In this document: piece after piece, positions 17,151-32,372 of the stretch | Numbering within the stretch: position 1 is the stretch's first letter | Layout of the letters: the number at the start of each line of letters is the position of its first letter | Notes under the pieces: model-generated | What the model was told of the DNA's origin: nothing | Database searches by the model: none | The model's input: only the letters and a program-made list of their open reading frames with translations | Assembly (NCBI GenBank): GCA_012522805.1 | Contig: JAAYJS010000020.1 | Location: 26,863 to 90,862 of the forward strand | Direction: 5' to 3' | Source: Eubacteriaceae bacterium | Lineage (GTDB): Bacteria; Bacillota; Clostridia; Eubacteriales; Eubacteriaceae | Length of the DNA stretch: 64,000 nt | Program-made: the position numbers and the translations under genes

Positions 17151-17240
17151 GGAGAGATGACCGAGCGGCTGAAGGTGCACGCCTGGAAAGCGTGTGTACG
17201 CGAGAGTGTACCGAGGGTTCAAATCCCTCTCTCTCCGCCA
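17151..17240 (+). tRNA. tRNA-Ser(GGA), CCA encoded
   Basis: Acceptor GGAGAGA/TCTCTCC + G + CCA; anticodon loop ctGGAaa; long variable arm; GGTTCAAATCC T-arm. Confidence 0.95.
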
Positions 17241-17269
17241 TTTTTTTACACATTTTTAGTCGATATAAT

Positions 17270-17540
17270 TGGTCGCACTAGACGGAGAGATAGCGGTGCT
17301 CTGTAACCTGCAATCCGCTATAGCAGGGTTGAATTCCTCAAAAAGGGTGGTTGATTCTGGGTCTGCCATCGGAAAGTGGTGTTGACGACCGGACCCTACG
17401 CAACAGAACCTCGGGAACCCCGTCAGGTCAGGAATGAAGCAGCGGTAACCGGGACATTCTGTGTGCCGAAGGACTCTCTGGTAAGAGCTAACTATCGGTG
17501 TAACGCCGGAAGAGGTCATTCGATGCGAGGTGTGCGACTT
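17270..17540 (+). ncRNA. ffs: SRP RNA (large bacterial 4.5S/6S-type, ffs/scr)
   Basis: Conserved domain IV core cgtcaggtcaggaatgaagcagcggtaa at ~17421-17447 within a ~270 nt structured non-coding region; exact ends uncertain. Confidence 0.88.
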
Positions 17541-18751: not shown

Positions 18752-20191
18752 TTAGAGATATGGTTCTGAACGTTCTAACAGAGATTTAAACTTACTTATC
18801 ACCCATTTTTTATCTTTCTGTATTAATGGTATTTTTGTCCATAATTTTTCAAAGTATTGGTATAGAACAAAAACGGCAGTTGGATCTTCTACATACAATC
18901 CATAATAGTCTTTATCTAAATAGTTAAAGCTTGAAGCAAATGCATATTGGTTATTCTCCACCACAAACACAACATTTTTGGCAACAATCTTAGGTATTTT
19001 ACCTAAAAGAGTGACTTCAAAACAAGAGTTTGTTTCAAGTAGATTGATTATTTGAAAAATTTCATCACAAATCACTTTTAAGGTCACTGAAGAACTTTTG
19101 TGAGTAGTAATACTCTTACAAAGCATACTGATTAAATATTCAGTTTTATGCAAATCATAAATTAATCGTAGATTGAAAGATCTTTCATCGCGATTCATAG
19201 ATGTCTTTGCCTGATCATTATTGTTGGTTATGGTGTTTGAAATGAAAGAAAATGGATGTGGACTAAAAAAATAAACCGTCTCTTTAGACATAAGTTTTTG
19301 TCTAATATAATCTTCTAACTCATGAATATTTTCAAAATATAGATGGGTATAAATAGGAAGGCTTTTATTTTCTAGTGTTTCGTATAATTGCTGGTAATAG
19401 TTTACAGTCCGTATATCTGTATGATATTCAGCATATCTTTGTATAGGAAGAGCCTCATTGTACTGACAAATCAAGGCAGCTTTATTCTTTATGATTAGAA
19501 TGTCTGAAAAGTTTGTTGGTACTTGATAGGGTGGCAAATAAAAAGTTTTAACTCGGTGATTTAAATTAAGCTCAATATCACGCTCAAAAATATTGATTAA
19601 AGTATCGTGTTTTGCATTGAAAGTATGTATGATATGTAATTGATGATTTTTCAAGATTTCTGTTAAAAGTAATCTTCTTCTTTCTTGAAAATTTGTTTTG
19701 CTTTTTTTCCAAGAATCTTCTTCAAAATCATAGATCAAGAAGATTTGATTTGGAGGTAGTGACTTTAAGTATTCTAAAATCCTCACTACGGCTTTTTCAC
19801 GGCCGCTATCATAATAATAAATAGAAATCTGAGCTCTGTAGCTATTACAATCTAACGTACTATTAGAAGTACCTTCAGATATGAACTCATTAGTTAACCA
19901 TTTTTTCAATAAAATGTAAAGTTGATGAGAAGTAAGATTCTCAAAATTTGTAGATATGGATTGATCAGTTAACAATGCTTTAATTTTCTGATAACTATTT
20001 TTCTCATCAATTTTCATGTAGTATTCGCAAATCAAATCAGCGTAAACAGAATCTGCTTTAAGTAATCGTTTATTATTGCGCCATTTACTCACAAGAGATG
20101 CGCTTATATGCAGAACTTCGGTCAAATCTTTGATGCGTGAGTTAAAACATTCCATGAGTAAGTATAGATTTGAGTGTTTCAATTGATTCAT
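18752..20191 (-). CDS. Long HTH (XRE-like) transcriptional regulator, 479 aa
   Basis: N-terminal HTH-like segment IKDLTEVLHISASLVSKWRNNKRLLKADS; remainder unassigned; divergent from UroD operon. Confidence 0.65.
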   Translation of the reverse strand: MNQLKHSNLYLLMECFNSRIKDLTEVLHISASLVSKWRNNKRLLKADSVYADLICEYYMKIDEKNSYQKIKALLTDQSISTNFENLTSHQLYILLKKWLTNEFISEGTSNSTLDCNSYRAQISIYYYDSGREKAVVRILEYLKSLPPNQIFLIYDFEEDSWKKSKTNFQERRRLLLTEILKNHQLHIIHTFNAKHDTLINIFERDIELNLNHRVKTFYLPPYQVPTNFSDILIIKNKAALICQYNEALPIQRYAEYHTDIRTVNYYQQLYETLENKSLPIYTHLYFENIHELEDYIRQKLMSKETVYFFSPHPFSFISNTITNNNDQAKTSMNRDERSFNLRLIYDLHKTEYLISMLCKSITTHKSSSVTLKVICDEIFQIINLLETNSCFEVTLLGKIPKIVAKNVVFVVENNQYAFASSFNYLDKDYYGLYVEDPTAVFVLYQYFEKLWTKIPLIQKDKKWVISKFKSLLERSEPYL

Positions 20192-20236
20192 AAATAATTT
20201 TCTTTCAAAAATTTATCAGAAGAAACTGAGTGTTTT

Positions 20237-20265
20237 ATTTTATCAGCTGTAAAATTATTTGTCAA
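20237..20265 (-). promoter_or_regulatory. Putative promoter of the HTH regulator gene
   Basis: Minus strand TTGACA (20265-20260), 17-bp spacer, TAAAAT (20242-20237). Confidence 0.6.
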
Positions 20266-20295
20266 ATTGTATTTATGACAAAGAAGTATAAATCA

Positions 20296-20324
20296 TTGTG
20301 CACAATAAAAACACTTAGTATAAT
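20296..20324 (+). promoter_or_regulatory. Putative promoter of the UroD/permease operon with embedded palindrome
   Basis: TTGTGC (20296-20301), 17-bp spacer, TATAAT (20319-20324); perfect 12-bp palindrome ATTGTGCACAAT at 20295-20306. Confidence 0.6.
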
Positions 20325-20428
20325 CATAAAAAGATGAAATTTCATAAAATAGCCTCCGGAGAAGCACCTAATTAGAAGAGAAATATTGTAAAATACAATA
20401 AATTAAAAAAAGGAGTGAGTTTTTTTAG

Positions 20429-21760
20429 ATGGTTTCAAAAACAGAGTTATTTAAAGACGTATTCGAAGGAAGAGTACCAAAACGTGTACCAATTTCTGCG
20501 AAATTACCATTTGAAGCATGTATTGAGTATGCGGGTCTACCAATTGTAGAAACACAATGGAATTTCAAGGGGGTCGATAAGGCGTATGAAAGTTTATGTC
20601 AGATTATTCAAACCGATACGATACCAGTCGGAGGTGAAGAAAAAAATCCAGCTGTATTTAAAATTTTAGATTCACAGGGCTATCAAGTAACATCTTCTGG
20701 GAGCATTCAACATGCAGATTGTGTGACATTATTTCCGGAGGAATATTCTGAGTTTAGTAAGAATCCCACAAATTTTTTTGTAGAAAAAATCTTTCCAAGA
20801 ATGTTTAAAGCATTAGATAGCAATGCTGCTAAACGGTCGATGGTTTTGGCTGAAGCTGCTATGGCTTTTAACGAAAGGTCAATGAATGTTGGCCAACTTA
20901 TAAAAGTGCTTAGTGATAAATATGGATTCTTTGTTCCTCCTAGAGGTAGTTCGGTCGTTGTACGAGCACCTTTTGATGTAATAGGAGATTTTTTAAGAGG
21001 TTTTAAGGGGGTTTCTGCAGATTTAAGACGCTTTCCTGAAAAAATACAAGAAGCATGCGATGCACTTCTGCCATTTCAGATCAAAAGAGGTTTGCCTTCA
21101 AACAGATCTGTTCTCGGCTCGACGTTTATTCCCTTGCATTTTGCAGGATACATACGTCCAAAAGACTTTGAGAAAGTTTATTGGCCATCGTTAAAAAAGT
21201 TTGTAGATTATTTATACAGCAAAGGACAAATTTGCAACTTGTTCTGTGAGCATAATTGGATGCGTTACTTAGATTTTTTATATGAATTACCACCGGGTAC
21301 TCGTTTTATATTTGAATACGGTGATCCACAGAAAATAAAAGACAAACTTGGGAAAAAACACATTATCAGTGGCTTATACCCATTAACTTACCTCAAAATG
21401 TCTAAAAAGGAAGAATGTATTGACAAAGCGAAAGAGCTTATCGATGTGTTGGCGCCTGGTGGGAATTATATCTTCAGTTTTGATAAAAATCCTTTGAGCT
21501 TAAATAGTATTAATTTTGACAATTACAAAGCCGTTATCGATTACGTTGCAGAAAATGCTTTTTATCCAAATGCAGGAGAAAAGAGCATTCATTATCAATG
21601 GAATGAAGACTGCAATTCATTAGGACCCTATGAACTTGAGTCAGATTATTATTTGGAACATTTTTCCGAAGGATATTCTCATTCCATAGATGGGTTGATG
21701 GATGAACAGTTAAAAAAATACAATTCAATGCTTTTCAATATGCTTATGAGAAGTTTATAG
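20429..21760 (+). CDS. Uroporphyrinogen decarboxylase superfamily protein (divergent), paralog 1
   Basis: RVPKRVPISAKLP start region, GTRFIFEYGDPQKIKDKLGKKHIISGLYP, LAPGGNYIFSFDKNP; same domain order as UroD/MtaA-like proteins. Confidence 0.75.
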   Translation: MVSKTELFKDVFEGRVPKRVPISAKLPFEACIEYAGLPIVETQWNFKGVDKAYESLCQIIQTDTIPVGGEEKNPAVFKILDSQGYQVTSSGSIQHADCVTLFPEEYSEFSKNPTNFFVEKIFPRMFKALDSNAAKRSMVLAEAAMAFNERSMNVGQLIKVLSDKYGFFVPPRGSSVVVRAPFDVIGDFLRGFKGVSADLRRFPEKIQEACDALLPFQIKRGLPSNRSVLGSTFIPLHFAGYIRPKDFEKVYWPSLKKFVDYLYSKGQICNLFCEHNWMRYLDFLYELPPGTRFIFEYGDPQKIKDKLGKKHIISGLYPLTYLKMSKKEECIDKAKELIDVLAPGGNYIFSFDKNPLSLNSINFDNYKAVIDYVAENAFYPNAGEKSIHYQWNEDCNSLGPYELESDYYLEHFSEGYSHSIDGLMDEQLKKYNSMLFNMLMRSL

Positions 21761-21779
21761 ATTTATAAGGAGAAAATTT

Positions 21780-23156
21780 ATGAGAGATAAAATGAGAACT
21801 CACGAAACAAAGATAAAATGGTTTTTCATTATTTTTGTGCCTCTTGTTATTCAATTAATTCCGACGAATGATACTTTTACGGTTCCGATTAGATTGTTTA
21901 GTGGTGTAACATTAGGTGTTATTCTAATGTTTGCATTCGAAGTATTGCCGAGTTTAATACCTGCATTGCTTTTGCCAGTATTTTATATATTAGCAAGGCT
22001 AGCACCACCAAACATTGTCTTTTCACCATGGCTTGGAACCATTCCTTGGATGTTTCTAGGTGGATTTTTATTTGCTAATATTCTTATTAGAATAGGTCTT
22101 TTAAAACGCGTCGCTTACTGGATTCTACAGCGAACAGGAGAATCCTACTATGGTTTGCTAGTGGGAATTATGCTTTCAGGACTTGCTATCAATTTATTAG
22201 CACCCGGTAAAGCTATTTTACCACTTGCTGGTTTAACATATGGTATTTGTATGGCTCTGAATTTAGGAAGGACTAAAGAAGCAGCGGGAATAATGATGGC
22301 CGGATTCTTTTCATCTTATATACCGTTACAGTTTATTTATAATCCGTCTTTTGCGGTTATCCCGAATATGGCCGCTTCAATCACTGACCCGTCAATATCA
22401 TTTATAGATTACTTCATTCACAACATACCTTTTATTTTATGGATACCAATTGTTGTCTTTATGACTGGTAAGTTATGTAAACCAGAAAAAAAGTCTTATA
22501 AACTGGACTTTATTAGTGAAGAATTGAAAAATATGGGCAAAATGACTCTAGACGAGAAAAAGGGTGTTGTCATGAGTTTGGCGTTGTTAGTGTATTTATT
22601 AACTCAAGGTCTTCATAAGTTGGATCTTTCATGGGGATTTTTATTAGCCGGTTGCATCATGTATTTACCAGGATTCAATGTTGGTTTGAAAGAAGATATA
22701 CAAAAGATTGACTTTTCTATGATTTTCTTTACTTCAGCATGTTTAACGATAGGCGCAGTTGCAAACGAACTTGGATTTGGTGGAATGATAGCTCAAACGG
22801 TGTTACCGTTCCTGACGGGGAAAAATATTTTTGTAATGCTTGGTGCAATTTGGGTGATCTGTGTAATTGCGAATTTCCCTCTTACGCCTATGGCAATTTA
22901 TGCAACCTTTACACTTGCTTTCACAGAAATTGGAATGCAGCTTGGAATTAATCCTTTTGCGATTTTTTATACGATACAAGCAGGAAGCGCAGAAATACTC
23001 TTCCCATATCAATGGGCATTGCCACTTTTCTATGTTTCTTTTGGTCTCATCTCAACTAAGGATTTTATGAGAATTTGGGGTGTTAAGATGGCGATGTCAA
23101 TTGTGTTCTTAATGCTTATCGTCGTTCCTTATTGGAAATTAATTGGATTAGTATAA
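21780..23156 (+). CDS. DASS/SLC13-type anion (carboxylate) permease
   Basis: 458 aa, many hydrophobic TM segments, PWMFLGGFLFANILIRIGLLKRVAYWIL and late FPLTPMAIYATFTLAF as in anion permeases. Confidence 0.75.
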   Translation: MRDKMRTHETKIKWFFIIFVPLVIQLIPTNDTFTVPIRLFSGVTLGVILMFAFEVLPSLIPALLLPVFYILARLAPPNIVFSPWLGTIPWMFLGGFLFANILIRIGLLKRVAYWILQRTGESYYGLLVGIMLSGLAINLLAPGKAILPLAGLTYGICMALNLGRTKEAAGIMMAGFFSSYIPLQFIYNPSFAVIPNMAASITDPSISFIDYFIHNIPFILWIPIVVFMTGKLCKPEKKSYKLDFISEELKNMGKMTLDEKKGVVMSLALLVYLLTQGLHKLDLSWGFLLAGCIMYLPGFNVGLKEDIQKIDFSMIFFTSACLTIGAVANELGFGGMIAQTVLPFLTGKNIFVMLGAIWVICVIANFPLTPMAIYATFTLAFTEIGMQLGINPFAIFYTIQAGSAEILFPYQWALPLFYVSFGLISTKDFMRIWGVKMAMSIVFLMLIVVPYWKLIGLV

Positions 23157-23165
23157 GGAGAAAAA

Positions 23166-24512
23166 ATGGAAAACTGTCAAATTCATAAAAACTTTTCTGA
23201 TATATATGATGGAATCATTCCTAAACGGGTACCTATTGGGGCAATATTACCATTGGAATTTTGTATTCAGTATGCAGATTTAGATTTAGCGGAAACTCAA
23301 TGGACCCTTGATGGTGTTTATGAGGCTGCTGATGAGCTTTGTAATATGTTGCCTTTAGAAATGGCTCCATTAGGAACACCAAGATATCCAGCTTATCTTA
23401 CAATACTAAAAGCTAAAACTTACAAAATGGGTGAAAGTGGTTTCATGCAGCATCCTGAAATAGAAGGTATGCTTTCAGAAGAATATCCACTGTTCAACCA
23501 AAATCCAAGAGATTTTATCATCCAAACAGTTTTTCCAAGACTTTTTGAAAATTGGGATACAGATCCTATCAATAGAACATTGCTTTTTTCACAGGCTTTG
23601 TTAGCATATAAGGATTATCAAACACAACACCTTACCATTGTTCAAAAACTTAGAAAAAATCATGATTTTCACACACCACCAGCAGGATCTATAGGTGGAG
23701 TCACGGTACCTTTTGATTATTTGGCTGATTTCTTGCGTGGGTTTACAGGTATTACCATCGATGTAAAAAGACGTCCAGAAATGATACTAGAAGCTTGTGA
23801 AGCAGTATTACCTTTTCTTCTCGAAAAAGGATTACCAGCCAATCCAAGTAAATACGGTCAAACATTTATCCCGTTACATATGGGAACTTACTTGAGAGAA
23901 AAAGAATTCAAAAAACTTTATTGGCCATCATTTAAAAAACTTGTTCAGTTGATGGCAGATGCGGGACAACCAGCTTATATCTTTTGCGAAGATGACTGGA
24001 CACGTTATTTAGATTATCTTCAAGATTTACCGGAGGGTACACGTTTTTGCTTTGAATATGGAGATCCTGTGCAAATAAAGAAGAAATTGGGTCACAAACA
24101 TATTTTATCAGGTTTATATCCTATTAGATATCTAAAGACCGCGACTAAACAAGAATGTATCGATAAAGCCAAAAAATTAATGGATATTTTGGCTCCTGGT
24201 GGTAATTATATTTTCAATTTTGATAAAAATCCTTTTGTCATCGGTGATGTAGATTTGGATAATTATAAAGCTGTGTTGGAATTTGTGCTTGAATATGGGA
24301 GATATGACAATAGTGGCCAAAAATCTAGAGAAACATTGAATAGAGAATTCAGTCAAGATACTTTACAAAAAGGCTTGAAATATGAATCCAAATACGGCGA
24401 ATTTGACTATAGTAATGTTGATTTTGTAGGAAAAGAATTAGGAAGTACTGTCGAGCCAATTTTAAAGAAATATCATCAGGAAGTATTTAATTTCTTGATA
24501 AGATTGGTATAG
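23166..24512 (+). CDS. Uroporphyrinogen decarboxylase superfamily protein (divergent), paralog 2
   Basis: Extended similarity to 20429-21760 product: GTRFCFEYGDPVQIKKKLGHKHILSGLYPIRYLK ... LAPGGNYIFNFDKNP. Confidence 0.75.
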   Translation: MENCQIHKNFSDIYDGIIPKRVPIGAILPLEFCIQYADLDLAETQWTLDGVYEAADELCNMLPLEMAPLGTPRYPAYLTILKAKTYKMGESGFMQHPEIEGMLSEEYPLFNQNPRDFIIQTVFPRLFENWDTDPINRTLLFSQALLAYKDYQTQHLTIVQKLRKNHDFHTPPAGSIGGVTVPFDYLADFLRGFTGITIDVKRRPEMILEACEAVLPFLLEKGLPANPSKYGQTFIPLHMGTYLREKEFKKLYWPSFKKLVQLMADAGQPAYIFCEDDWTRYLDYLQDLPEGTRFCFEYGDPVQIKKKLGHKHILSGLYPIRYLKTATKQECIDKAKKLMDILAPGGNYIFNFDKNPFVIGDVDLDNYKAVLEFVLEYGRYDNSGQKSRETLNREFSQDTLQKGLKYESKYGEFDYSNVDFVGKELGSTVEPILKKYHQEVFNFLIRLV

Positions 24513-24828: not shown

Positions 24829-25085
24829 ACATCATCAATACCATGAAAATGGTACGCAAGCTATTATATCATAGCTTGTTTTTTTTGTCATAATTATTAT
24901 AATAATTTTACTGGAATCGATGCTGTCTATCAAACTTCTTAATGATTAGTCCTGTATATCCATGCTCCTTTGCACTCATTGAAAGATAGTGATAGAATAG
25001 AAAAGATATGAATAGAAAATGATGATCTTAAGATACGATTTTAGAGTTAAAAGATCTTTATAGAAAGAGAGGTCAGAATAATCAT

Positions 25086-29901: not shown

Positions 29902-30078
29902 ATACATAAATATTATGTAACTTTATAAAAATAGATAAAATTTGGATTTTTTCCCACTTAAAATCATCATGAATGCGATTTTTCAGAGGCATTTGCGTTG
30001 AGAATTTACACTATACGTAAACGTTTCTAAATGATAAAATACATAATGGAATTTGAGTAAAGTGTTTTGGAGGTAAAG

Positions 30079-31407
30079 ATGAAATCAAAAACTTTCCGTG
30101 GTGGGATCCACCCGCCCTATCGGAAAAAAAGAACAGCTGAGGCATCCGTGAAGGTCGCTACCGAACCGGAAATCGTGACGATTCCTATGACTCAGCATAT
30201 CGGTACACCAAGTAAACCTCTAGTTAAAAGGAAAGACTATGTTTATCTCGGACAAAAAATCGGCGATTCAGATGGTTTTGTTTCGGTGCCGGCTCATGCC
30301 AGTGTCAGCGGTACGGTTGTCGCAGTAGAACCACGCCATCATCCCGGTGGAGATGACATTATGTCTGTTGTCATTGAATCCGACGGTTTGAATCAAGTAG
30401 ATCCATCCATTAAACCCTACGGTAATTATCAAAACTTTGAACCTAAAGAAGTGATCAGTATCATTCAAGATGCCGGTATCGTTGGGCTGGGTGGCGCCAT
30501 GTTTCCAACCCATGTCAAACTGTCGATCCCACCGGACAAGAAGGTAGATTGTATCGTGTTGAACGGTGCGGAATGCGAACCCTATATTACAGCCGATCAC
30601 CATCTCATGATGGCGAGACCCAAACGCGTTTTACAGGGATTGCGCATAGCCATGTACGCAACCGGCGTTACCAAGGGCTATGTCGGAGTAGAGGATAATA
30701 AACCGGCAGCAATAGAAAAACTAAGAGAAGCTCTCACACCGGAAGACAATATCGAGATTGTTCCCTTGGAGACAAAATACCCTCAAGGGGGCGAAAAACA
30801 ACTCATCAATGCCGTAACAGGTAGAGAAGTGCCCTCCGGCGGGTTACCTGCAGATGCCGGCGTCGTTGTACTGAATGTCGCAACTGCCAGTCAAATTGCA
30901 GTGACCTTTGAAACCGGAATGCCCTTGCATTCTCGACTTTTAACCTGCACAGGAGATGCTGTTAAAGAAGCGCGGACCTTTGAAGTTAGAATCGGAACAC
31001 CTCTGCAAAACATCATAGACTTGTGTGACGGTTTTGTAACGGAACCCCATAAGATTATTATGGGAGGCCCCATGATGGGTCTTGCTCTGTTCGGTACAGA
31101 TGTTCCGGTAATCAAAGGTACTTCCGGCATTTTGTGTCTGACAGAAAAATCGGCTTTTGTTCCGGAACCGCAAAACTGCATTCGATGCGGTAAGTGCGCC
31201 GACATTTGTCCGATCCATTTGCAGCCGCTTTATATTTCAGCATATGCTCAAAAAGGGTTATGGGCGCATTGTGAAGAATTACATGCTTTAGATTGTATAG
31301 AGTGTGGCAGCTGTTCCTATATTTGCCCTGCCAAACGAACCCTTGTTTCCTCAATCAGAGTGGCAAAACGAGAAATTAATGATTTGAGAAGAAAAGGTAA
31401 GATTTAG
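30079..31407 (+). CDS. rnfC: RnfC subunit of ferredoxin:NAD+ oxidoreductase
   Basis: GGIHPPYRKK, GLGGAMFPTHVKLSIPPDKKVDCIVLNGAECEPYITADH, two 4Fe-4S CxxCxxCxxxCP motifs; start ATG 30079. Confidence 0.96.
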   Translation: MKSKTFRGGIHPPYRKKRTAEASVKVATEPEIVTIPMTQHIGTPSKPLVKRKDYVYLGQKIGDSDGFVSVPAHASVSGTVVAVEPRHHPGGDDIMSVVIESDGLNQVDPSIKPYGNYQNFEPKEVISIIQDAGIVGLGGAMFPTHVKLSIPPDKKVDCIVLNGAECEPYITADHHLMMARPKRVLQGLRIAMYATGVTKGYVGVEDNKPAAIEKLREALTPEDNIEIVPLETKYPQGGEKQLINAVTGREVPSGGLPADAGVVVLNVATASQIAVTFETGMPLHSRLLTCTGDAVKEARTFEVRIGTPLQNIIDLCDGFVTEPHKIIMGGPMMGLALFGTDVPVIKGTSGILCLTEKSAFVPEPQNCIRCGKCADICPIHLQPLYISAYAQKGLWAHCEELHALDCIECGSCSYICPAKRTLVSSIRVAKREINDLRRKGKI

Positions 31408-31415
31408 GAGGCACT

Positions 31416-32372
31416 GTGAAAAACTTATTTGTATCATCATCACCACATATCAGAAGCATTGAAACCACATCCAGTATTATGCAGAATGTGGTCATCGCTC
31501 TGTTGCCTGCATTGGCAGTTGCAGCTTATGTTTTTGGACTTCGCGTACTCATGTTGGTGGCGGTTTGTATTGCCAGTTCGGTTGCGACTGAATGGATTAT
31601 TCAAAAATTATTGAAACAACCAATCACCATCGACGACTGGAGCGCTGTCGTTACCGGAATATTGTTGGCTTTTAACCTGCCAATCAATGCACCTTGGTGG
31701 TTAGGGGTATTAGGCTCTGTTTTTGCCATCGCTTTGGTTAAGCAATGCTTTGGCGGTTTAGGTCACAATTTTATGAACCCCGCATTGGCTGCCAGAGCAT
31801 TCTTGGTAGCATCATGGCCAGTACGTATGACGGGAAGCGCTTATATTCCCTTAACGGATACCTTTACATCTGCTACACCCTTAGGAATGGTCGAAGCGGG
31901 GATGGATCCGTCCCTCTTGCCTTCACATTTGGATTTATTTTTAGGATTGAACGGTGTTTATGGCAGTATTGGAGAAATATCCGCTTTAGCCTTGATACTG
32001 GGTGGCGTCTATTTAATTGTGAGAGGTGTCATTTCTTACAGAATTCCGGTCACTTACATCGGAACTGTAGCCGTGCTATCCTTAATTTTTAAGCAAGATG
32101 TTTTATTTCAATTGTTGAGTGGTGGCTTGATGTTGGGTGCTTTCTTCATGGCTACCGACTATGTGTCATCACCTTCGTCACCAAAAGGACAGATTATTTT
32201 TGCAGTGGGGTGTGGTTTATTAACGGTTATCATACGCCTGTTTGGCGGTTATCCGGAGGGTGTTTCTTATTCCATTCTTTTAATGAACGTAGCTGCACCT
32301 TTAATTGAAAAATACACCAGACCGAAAATTTATGGTCTCAGACCGAAAGAAGTAAAGGAAGGAGGACAATAA
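31416..32372 (+). CDS. rnfD: RnfD membrane subunit
   Basis: FVSSSPHIRS start; FGGLGHNFMNPALAARAFL; DYVSSPSSPKGQIIF; position in operon. Confidence 0.95.
   Translation: MKNLFVSSSPHIRSIETTSSIMQNVVIALLPALAVAAYVFGLRVLMLVAVCIASSVATEWIIQKLLKQPITIDDWSAVVTGILLAFNLPINAPWWLGVLGSVFAIALVKQCFGGLGHNFMNPALAARAFLVASWPVRMTGSAYIPLTDTFTSATPLGMVEAGMDPSLLPSHLDLFLGLNGVYGSIGEISALALILGGVYLIVRGVISYRIPVTYIGTVAVLSLIFKQDVLFQLLSGGLMLGAFFMATDYVSSPSSPKGQIIFAVGCGLLTVIIRLFGGYPEGVSYSILLMNVAAPLIEKYTRPKIYGLRPKEVKEGGQ

Follow-up and report, generated by a model that had tools for sequence, protein, structure and literature searches.

A DASS-type permease flanked by two UroD-fold proteins: a putative demethylation module in a Eubacteriaceae genome of acetogen genotype

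The UroD fold is shared by first-step and second-step methyltransferases. Acetogens of the gut, among them Eubacterium, remove methyl groups from drugs and from compounds of the diet, and for the majority of their numerous methyltransferases the substrate is still to be assigned; a compact module is among the easier ones to assign, its permease and regulator being independent handles on the substrate. CdmB of Acetobacterium dehalogenans (PDB 9rui) is a corrinoid-dependent substrate:corrinoid-protein methyltransferase (MTI) for chloromethane, which its authors relate to the O-demethylases MtvB, OdmB, VdmB and MtoB; the enzyme is active without zinc and crystallised without metal (PMC13222342). 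In E. limosum, a single carrier, MtqC, encoded elsewhere, serves MtyB, MtcB and MtpB, and the gene of MtyB, like that of MtcB, adjoins an MFS transporter gene and has a divergent regulator (PMC8604678). According to the title of a work cited in PMC4791908, E. callanderi demethoxylates aromatic acids. Here, we describe a locus that shares features with these systems, located in a 64,000-nucleotide stretch of DNA of a Eubacteriaceae bacterium (referred to below as the window).

Gene layout, regulator and permease

The initial annotation had described two paralogous UroD-fold proteins encoded on either side of a DASS-type permease gene. This is confirmed: the ORFs of the trio and of the divergent gene, REG, are intact where they had been placed (Table 1), UroD-A and UroD-B share 45% identity over 439 residues, far beyond chance, and their fold models agree. 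The motifs that had been quoted for both proteins are present as written.

Table 1. Coordinates of the trio and of adjoining features (window positions)
Feature	Position	Strand	Description
REG, divergent regulator-like gene	18752..20191	-	479 aa; unnamed family, weak N-terminal HTH
REG/UroD-A divergent promoter region	20192..20428		11/12 sigma-70-like match
UroD-A	20429..21760	+	443 aa; UroD-fold putative substrate:corrinoid-protein methyltransferase (MTI)
Permease	21780..23156	+	458 aa; DASS/SLC13-type organic anion permease without the two SNT motifs
UroD-B	23166..24512	+	448 aa; second UroD-fold putative MTI
Possible intrinsic terminator, 3' of the trio	24856..24879	+	9-bp stem, T-run

Since the gaps between the three + strand genes are just 19 bp (UroD-A/permease) and 9 bp (permease/UroD-B), the layout suggests that the trio is read as one transcript. 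The sigma-70-like match between REG and UroD-A (11/12, 20265-20237) lies on the - strand, and the counts of promoter and of terminator patterns around the trio show no excess over shuffled sequence. An Rfam scan gave no riboswitch match in the vicinity of the trio. Upstream of REG, at 17151-17537, genes for a tRNA and a large SRP RNA stand in tandem.

As to the proposed divergent HTH regulator, the divergent 479-aa ORF stands, and its HTH is weakly supported: REG matches no Pfam family at cut-off, and HTH_3 was detected, at E 0.04, in one of its relatives. Among 61 relatives, the ten best homologues of REG (E < 1e-20) all lie within permease/UroD modules. One relative carries an in-frame TAG (L114:7638; G000:C46:27166-28104) and is situated between two permease genes with a UroD gene near; the locus is perhaps a decaying second module of the same genome. 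A distant relative in two further genomes (L156:7405-14991 and L157, genomes G090 and G406) adjoins genes for an amino acid permease and a glutamine-synthetase-like protein, together with three genes like the three parts of N-methylglutamate synthase, and this set is possibly a methylamine pathway in an acetogen.

The permease matched Pfam Na_sulph_symp with 58.2 bits (cut-off 27) and also CitMHS, and it matched the DASS model TIGR00785 below cut-off. Searched alone against PDB sequences, it retrieved nothing; the profile of its subfamily retrieved plastid DiT1 (9mcr, E 6e-23) as the best match and VcINDY (4f35) at E 9e-14. By these comparisons, the protein is a member of the DASS/SLC13 family of anion carriers. 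Two SNT motifs are known from the Na+-coupled DASS symporters VcINDY and NaCT; both are absent from the permease, which has NxLxPG and NFxLTP instead. That it works as an exchanger is speculation. Relatives outside the order adjoin phosphodiesterase-like, enoate-reductase-like or arylsulfotransferase-like genes, and these neighbours give no consistent clue to the substrate. Because of these mixed neighbours and the missing substrate-telling motifs, we only infer that the permease takes a carboxylate. Relatives in other classes (L139, L144, L149 and L152) repeatedly adjoin a gene for a type I phosphodiesterase/sulfatase-like protein of ~680 aa (PF01663).

Family placement, conserved residues and corrinoid partners

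Profile matches to known UroD families are marginal or absent: UroD-A scored 25.4 bits with Pfam URO-D, barely above the cut-off of 23.9, UroD-B has no Pfam match, and the NCBIfam hemE model matches neither protein. AlphaFold2 models (pLDDT 82.5 for UroD-A and 83.2 for UroD-B) were compared with known structures using Foldseek, and both matched UroD and MtaA structures at E values of 1e-7 to 1e-10, with UroD as the best match; the fold of the two proteins is therefore the UroD TIM barrel. At the sequence level, CdmB is the only clear relative in the PDB (E 3.6e-21 for UroD-A and 1.9e-20 for UroD-B; 22-25% identity in the aligned part). A profile of 26 family members retrieved CdmB at E 5e-50 and did not match UroD or MtaA. 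These results place UroD-A and UroD-B, as far as sequence comparison can tell, in the branch of the UroD superfamily formed by corrinoid-dependent MTI enzymes (the CdmB/MtvB/MtoB branch).

In the MtaA register, which comes from a weak profile comparison (hhalign probability 10%) and an MtaA alignment and is supported by the shared motif pattern, the H-x-C positions are occupied by L271-F272-C273 in UroD-A and by I-F-C in UroD-B, and the third Cys by G345. No H-x-C...C zinc site is present anywhere in either sequence; a canonical site elsewhere was considered and rejected on this ground, and C273 itself is present in just 2/12 corrinoid-linked members and in 35/75 members of the family. The residues that are kept across the family are, in UroD-A numbering, H237 (71/75), E274 (71/75), E296 (72/75) and D299 (71/75); they are identical in UroD-A, UroD-B and nearly all corrinoid-linked members. 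In CdmB, the four places are occupied by W, Q, D and N, so that UroD-A and UroD-B are closer to the unassigned majority of the family than to CdmB. The motif P-x-W-x-M-R-x-A-G-R, which we take to be the signature of uroporphyrinogen decarboxylase, was found in 0/78 family members. The earlier view that the proteins are neither canonical UroD nor canonical MtaA thus stands, the UroD signature, the hemE match and H-x-C...C all being absent.

The further step taken in the initial annotation, to leave the chemistry open on account of the missing H-x-C...C, is not borne out. The motif is absent family-wide, and CdmB is zinc-free. At L105, L106 and L011, relatives of UroD-A and UroD-B are encoded next to a pterin methyltransferase as well as a corrinoid protein, and at L109 next to a corrinoid protein; all of these relatives fall in the same tree as UroD-A and UroD-B. 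Because such corrinoid-adjacent members show the same pattern, with the H/E/E/D set and without H-x-C...C, the missing zinc motif is a trait of the family, and not a sign that the two proteins lack methyltransferase chemistry.

The same holds for the lack of an adjacent corrinoid or activator gene, which the initial annotation had also pointed out. The absence is real and extends to the whole contig of the window, on which genes of corrinoid proteins, pterin methyltransferases and activators are all missing. The genome, however, encodes 13 B12-binding_2 proteins, 6 Pterin_bind proteins and 2 RACo activators on other contigs. Given these partners and the non-local carrier that MtyB, MtcB and MtpB of E. 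limosum use, the missing local carrier is normal and no evidence against corrinoid chemistry. For MTIs of this branch, adjacency of the partner genes is common without being required, and presence in the genome has also been used for scoring completeness (PMC13222342). An acetogen genotype is marked by FTHFS and by two genes for the beta subunit of acetyl-CoA synthase, and Rnf-like genes were recognised by eye at 30067-32372 of the window. In the family to which UroD-A and UroD-B belong, therefore, the lack of H-x-C...C and of an adjoining corrinoid gene gives no ground for excluding corrinoid chemistry.

Several observations were made on other members of the family. Corrinoid linkage is rarer among forms with a long C-terminal extension (2/39 vs 10/39, p 0.025), a difference that is inflated by near-identical rows and is given no weight here. 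A CdmB-like protein (L064:6682-7947; G000:C16) shares 72.5% of 269 aligned residues with CdmB and has no recognised corrinoid protein alongside; the organism that encodes it may handle halomethanes. In a Eubacterium-group genome (G368), the MTI-like genes of the UroD family number at least 28, and those examined at its loci L080, L081, L085, L089 and L092 are mostly without corrinoid neighbours and often paired.

Conservation of the unit and history of the pair

The trio and REG occur in the same order in three Eubacterium genomes, G368 (L077), G396 (L103) and G401 (L104). Identity to the proteins of the window is 66-77% in the trio and 47-48% in REG. The proteins of L103 are identical to those of L009 from E. 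callanderi FD; organism titles are available for L009-L011, and the other genus names are deduced from sequence identity and from genus codes held in common. Neighbourhood analysis thus confirms the recurrence of UroD-permease-UroD synteny. Among 67 genomes of the order, the permease subfamily has 16 matches, all in six genomes, so that the 16 represent a handful of lineages and are not independent; a UroD-family gene lies within 511 bp of 15 of them and about 4 kb from the last one. In G368, the part of the genome that falls within 3 kb of a UroD-family gene is ~4% by a rough estimate, which was scaled up from 20 genes to 28. Outside the order, 0/20 permease relatives have a UroD-family gene within the stretches examined, some of which are short contigs. 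Variant arrangements were also observed: permease-UroD-permease-REG at L079 and L100, and an interposed REG or second UroD at L099 and L116.

In a tree of 78 rows, which was built by a quick search with SH-aLRT as its only support measure and whose placements are provisional, UroD-A falls in a set of 11 rows that is wholly permease-linked (98), and UroD-B groups with L010 and the Eubacterium orthologues (95). A larger set of 26 rows (99) encloses both; its other members are mostly Acetobacterium-group genes without corrinoid neighbours (genus code g2 being taken as Acetobacterium). A recent tandem duplication was rejected, the two proteins standing in separate supported sub-clades. Since they fall in different sub-clades, UroD-A and UroD-B are old, separately evolving paralogues that were brought or kept together. 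Such old paralogy is no less compatible with two specificities than with the heterodimer suggested in the initial annotation.

Proposed function and comparison with known systems

We consider it likely that the trio is an acetogen's module for substrate-specific demethylation, acting on an organic anion, most likely a methoxylated carboxylate; the demethylation is probably an O-demethylation. The computed basis of this reading is the fold, the family placement, the residues shared with corrinoid-linked relatives, the conservation of the unit and the presence of partner families in the genome; the direction of transport, the class of substrate, the division of labour, the origin of the carrier from another locus and the regulation are inferred. 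The permease would import the organic anion, most likely a methoxylated and probably aromatic carboxylate. UroD-A and UroD-B, as MTIs, would each take a methyl group from their own substrate and load it onto the Co(I) corrinoid of a carrier encoded at another locus, from which a pterin-binding MTII would pass it to tetrahydrofolate and the Wood-Ljungdahl pathway, while RACo-type activators would maintain the corrinoid in its reduced state. UroD-A and UroD-B probably have different substrates or attack different methoxyl positions, and REG probably induces the trio in the presence of substrate.

Membership in the UroD-family MTI group does not mean that an enzyme is an O-demethylase, because close relatives include the haloalkane enzyme CdmB. 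The methyl donor might thus be other than an ether, i.e., a haloalkane, an N-methyl or S-methyl compound or another methylated organic anion. CdmB, the sole sequence relative with a solved structure, accepts haloalkanes and not methoxylated aromatics, and the substrates of many clades of the superfamily are unassigned; however, the active site of CdmB differs at all four places (W/Q/D/N against H237/E274/E296/D299), and a module for haloalkanes would gain nothing from an anion permease of its own, so that we judge a non-ether donor unlikely. A further version of the demethylation reading, for which we would claim still somewhat less, is that UroD-A and UroD-B form an obligate MTI pair whose metal or acid site, made of His/Glu/Glu, is non-canonical. 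A DASS exchanger would supply this pair by trading methoxylated acid against demethylated product, and the pair would draw on a shared carrier pool. If true, acetogens would widen their methyl diet by means of permease-MTI cassettes rather than whole operons.

Two readings depart further from the demethylation module. The proteins could be corrinoid-independent, namely, novel UroD-fold decarboxylases or lyases acting on the imported anion, as their best fold match, UroD, and the contig without a corrinoid gene would allow. It is hard to reconcile with this that none of the family members has the UroD signature, that relatives with the same residues are encoded beside corrinoid protein and MTII genes, and that the PDB sequence search yields CdmB and not UroD, which makes it very unlikely. 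Least probable of all is a sequential pair, in which one partner is an MTI and the other an MtaA-like second-step enzyme transferring methyl from the methyl-corrinoid to an acceptor. The UroD fold spans both steps and two paralogues are encoded together here, but UroD-A and UroD-B have their conserved residues in common, belong to one clade near corrinoid-linked MTI-like proteins, and both lack the thiol-activating H-x-C...C of MtaA.

Chemistry and architecture of the proposed module are of known kinds, and the combination of a DASS permease with a UroD-fold pair does not seem to have been described. The initial annotation had put the system forward as a candidate undescribed module, and in agreement with this the combination was not found in the open-licence papers that were searched. 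Of the established UroD-fold enzymes, HemE is the best structural match, and UroD-A and UroD-B lack both its model match and its signature. The zinc methyltransferases MtaA, MtbA and CmuA (4ay7) share the fold and differ in the H-x-C...C site, which is L/I-F-C and G345 in the pair. The permease belongs with DiT1 and VcINDY in the DASS/SLC13 fold family by its subfamily profile and differs from the described carriers in the replacement of both SNT motifs and a score under the TIGR00785 cut-off.

CdmB resembles UroD-A and UroD-B as a UroD-superfamily MTI without H-x-C...C; unlike them, it lacks the H/E/E/D set, and its own carrier CdmC and MTII CdmA are encoded alongside. MtvB, OdmB, VdmB and the archaeal MtoB1/MtoB2, from the same superfamily branch as CdmB, are likened to UroD-A and UroD-B by description (PMC13222342). 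MtoB1/MtoB2 are paired MTIs with transporters, as in the trio, whereas the Mto operon encodes a corrinoid protein and a methyl-acceptor enzyme of its own, and its transporter is of the MFS and not the DASS type (PMC8630106). The quaternary-amine MTIs MtyB, MtcB and MtpB are stand-alone enzymes, with a transporter and a divergent regulator in the case of MtyB and MtcB, and with MtqC, the MTII MtqA and the activator RamQ encoded elsewhere; they differ in being single MTIs of the MttB superfamily with an MFS transporter (PMC8604678). The trio has the MtyB-type architecture, made of members of another protein superfamily.
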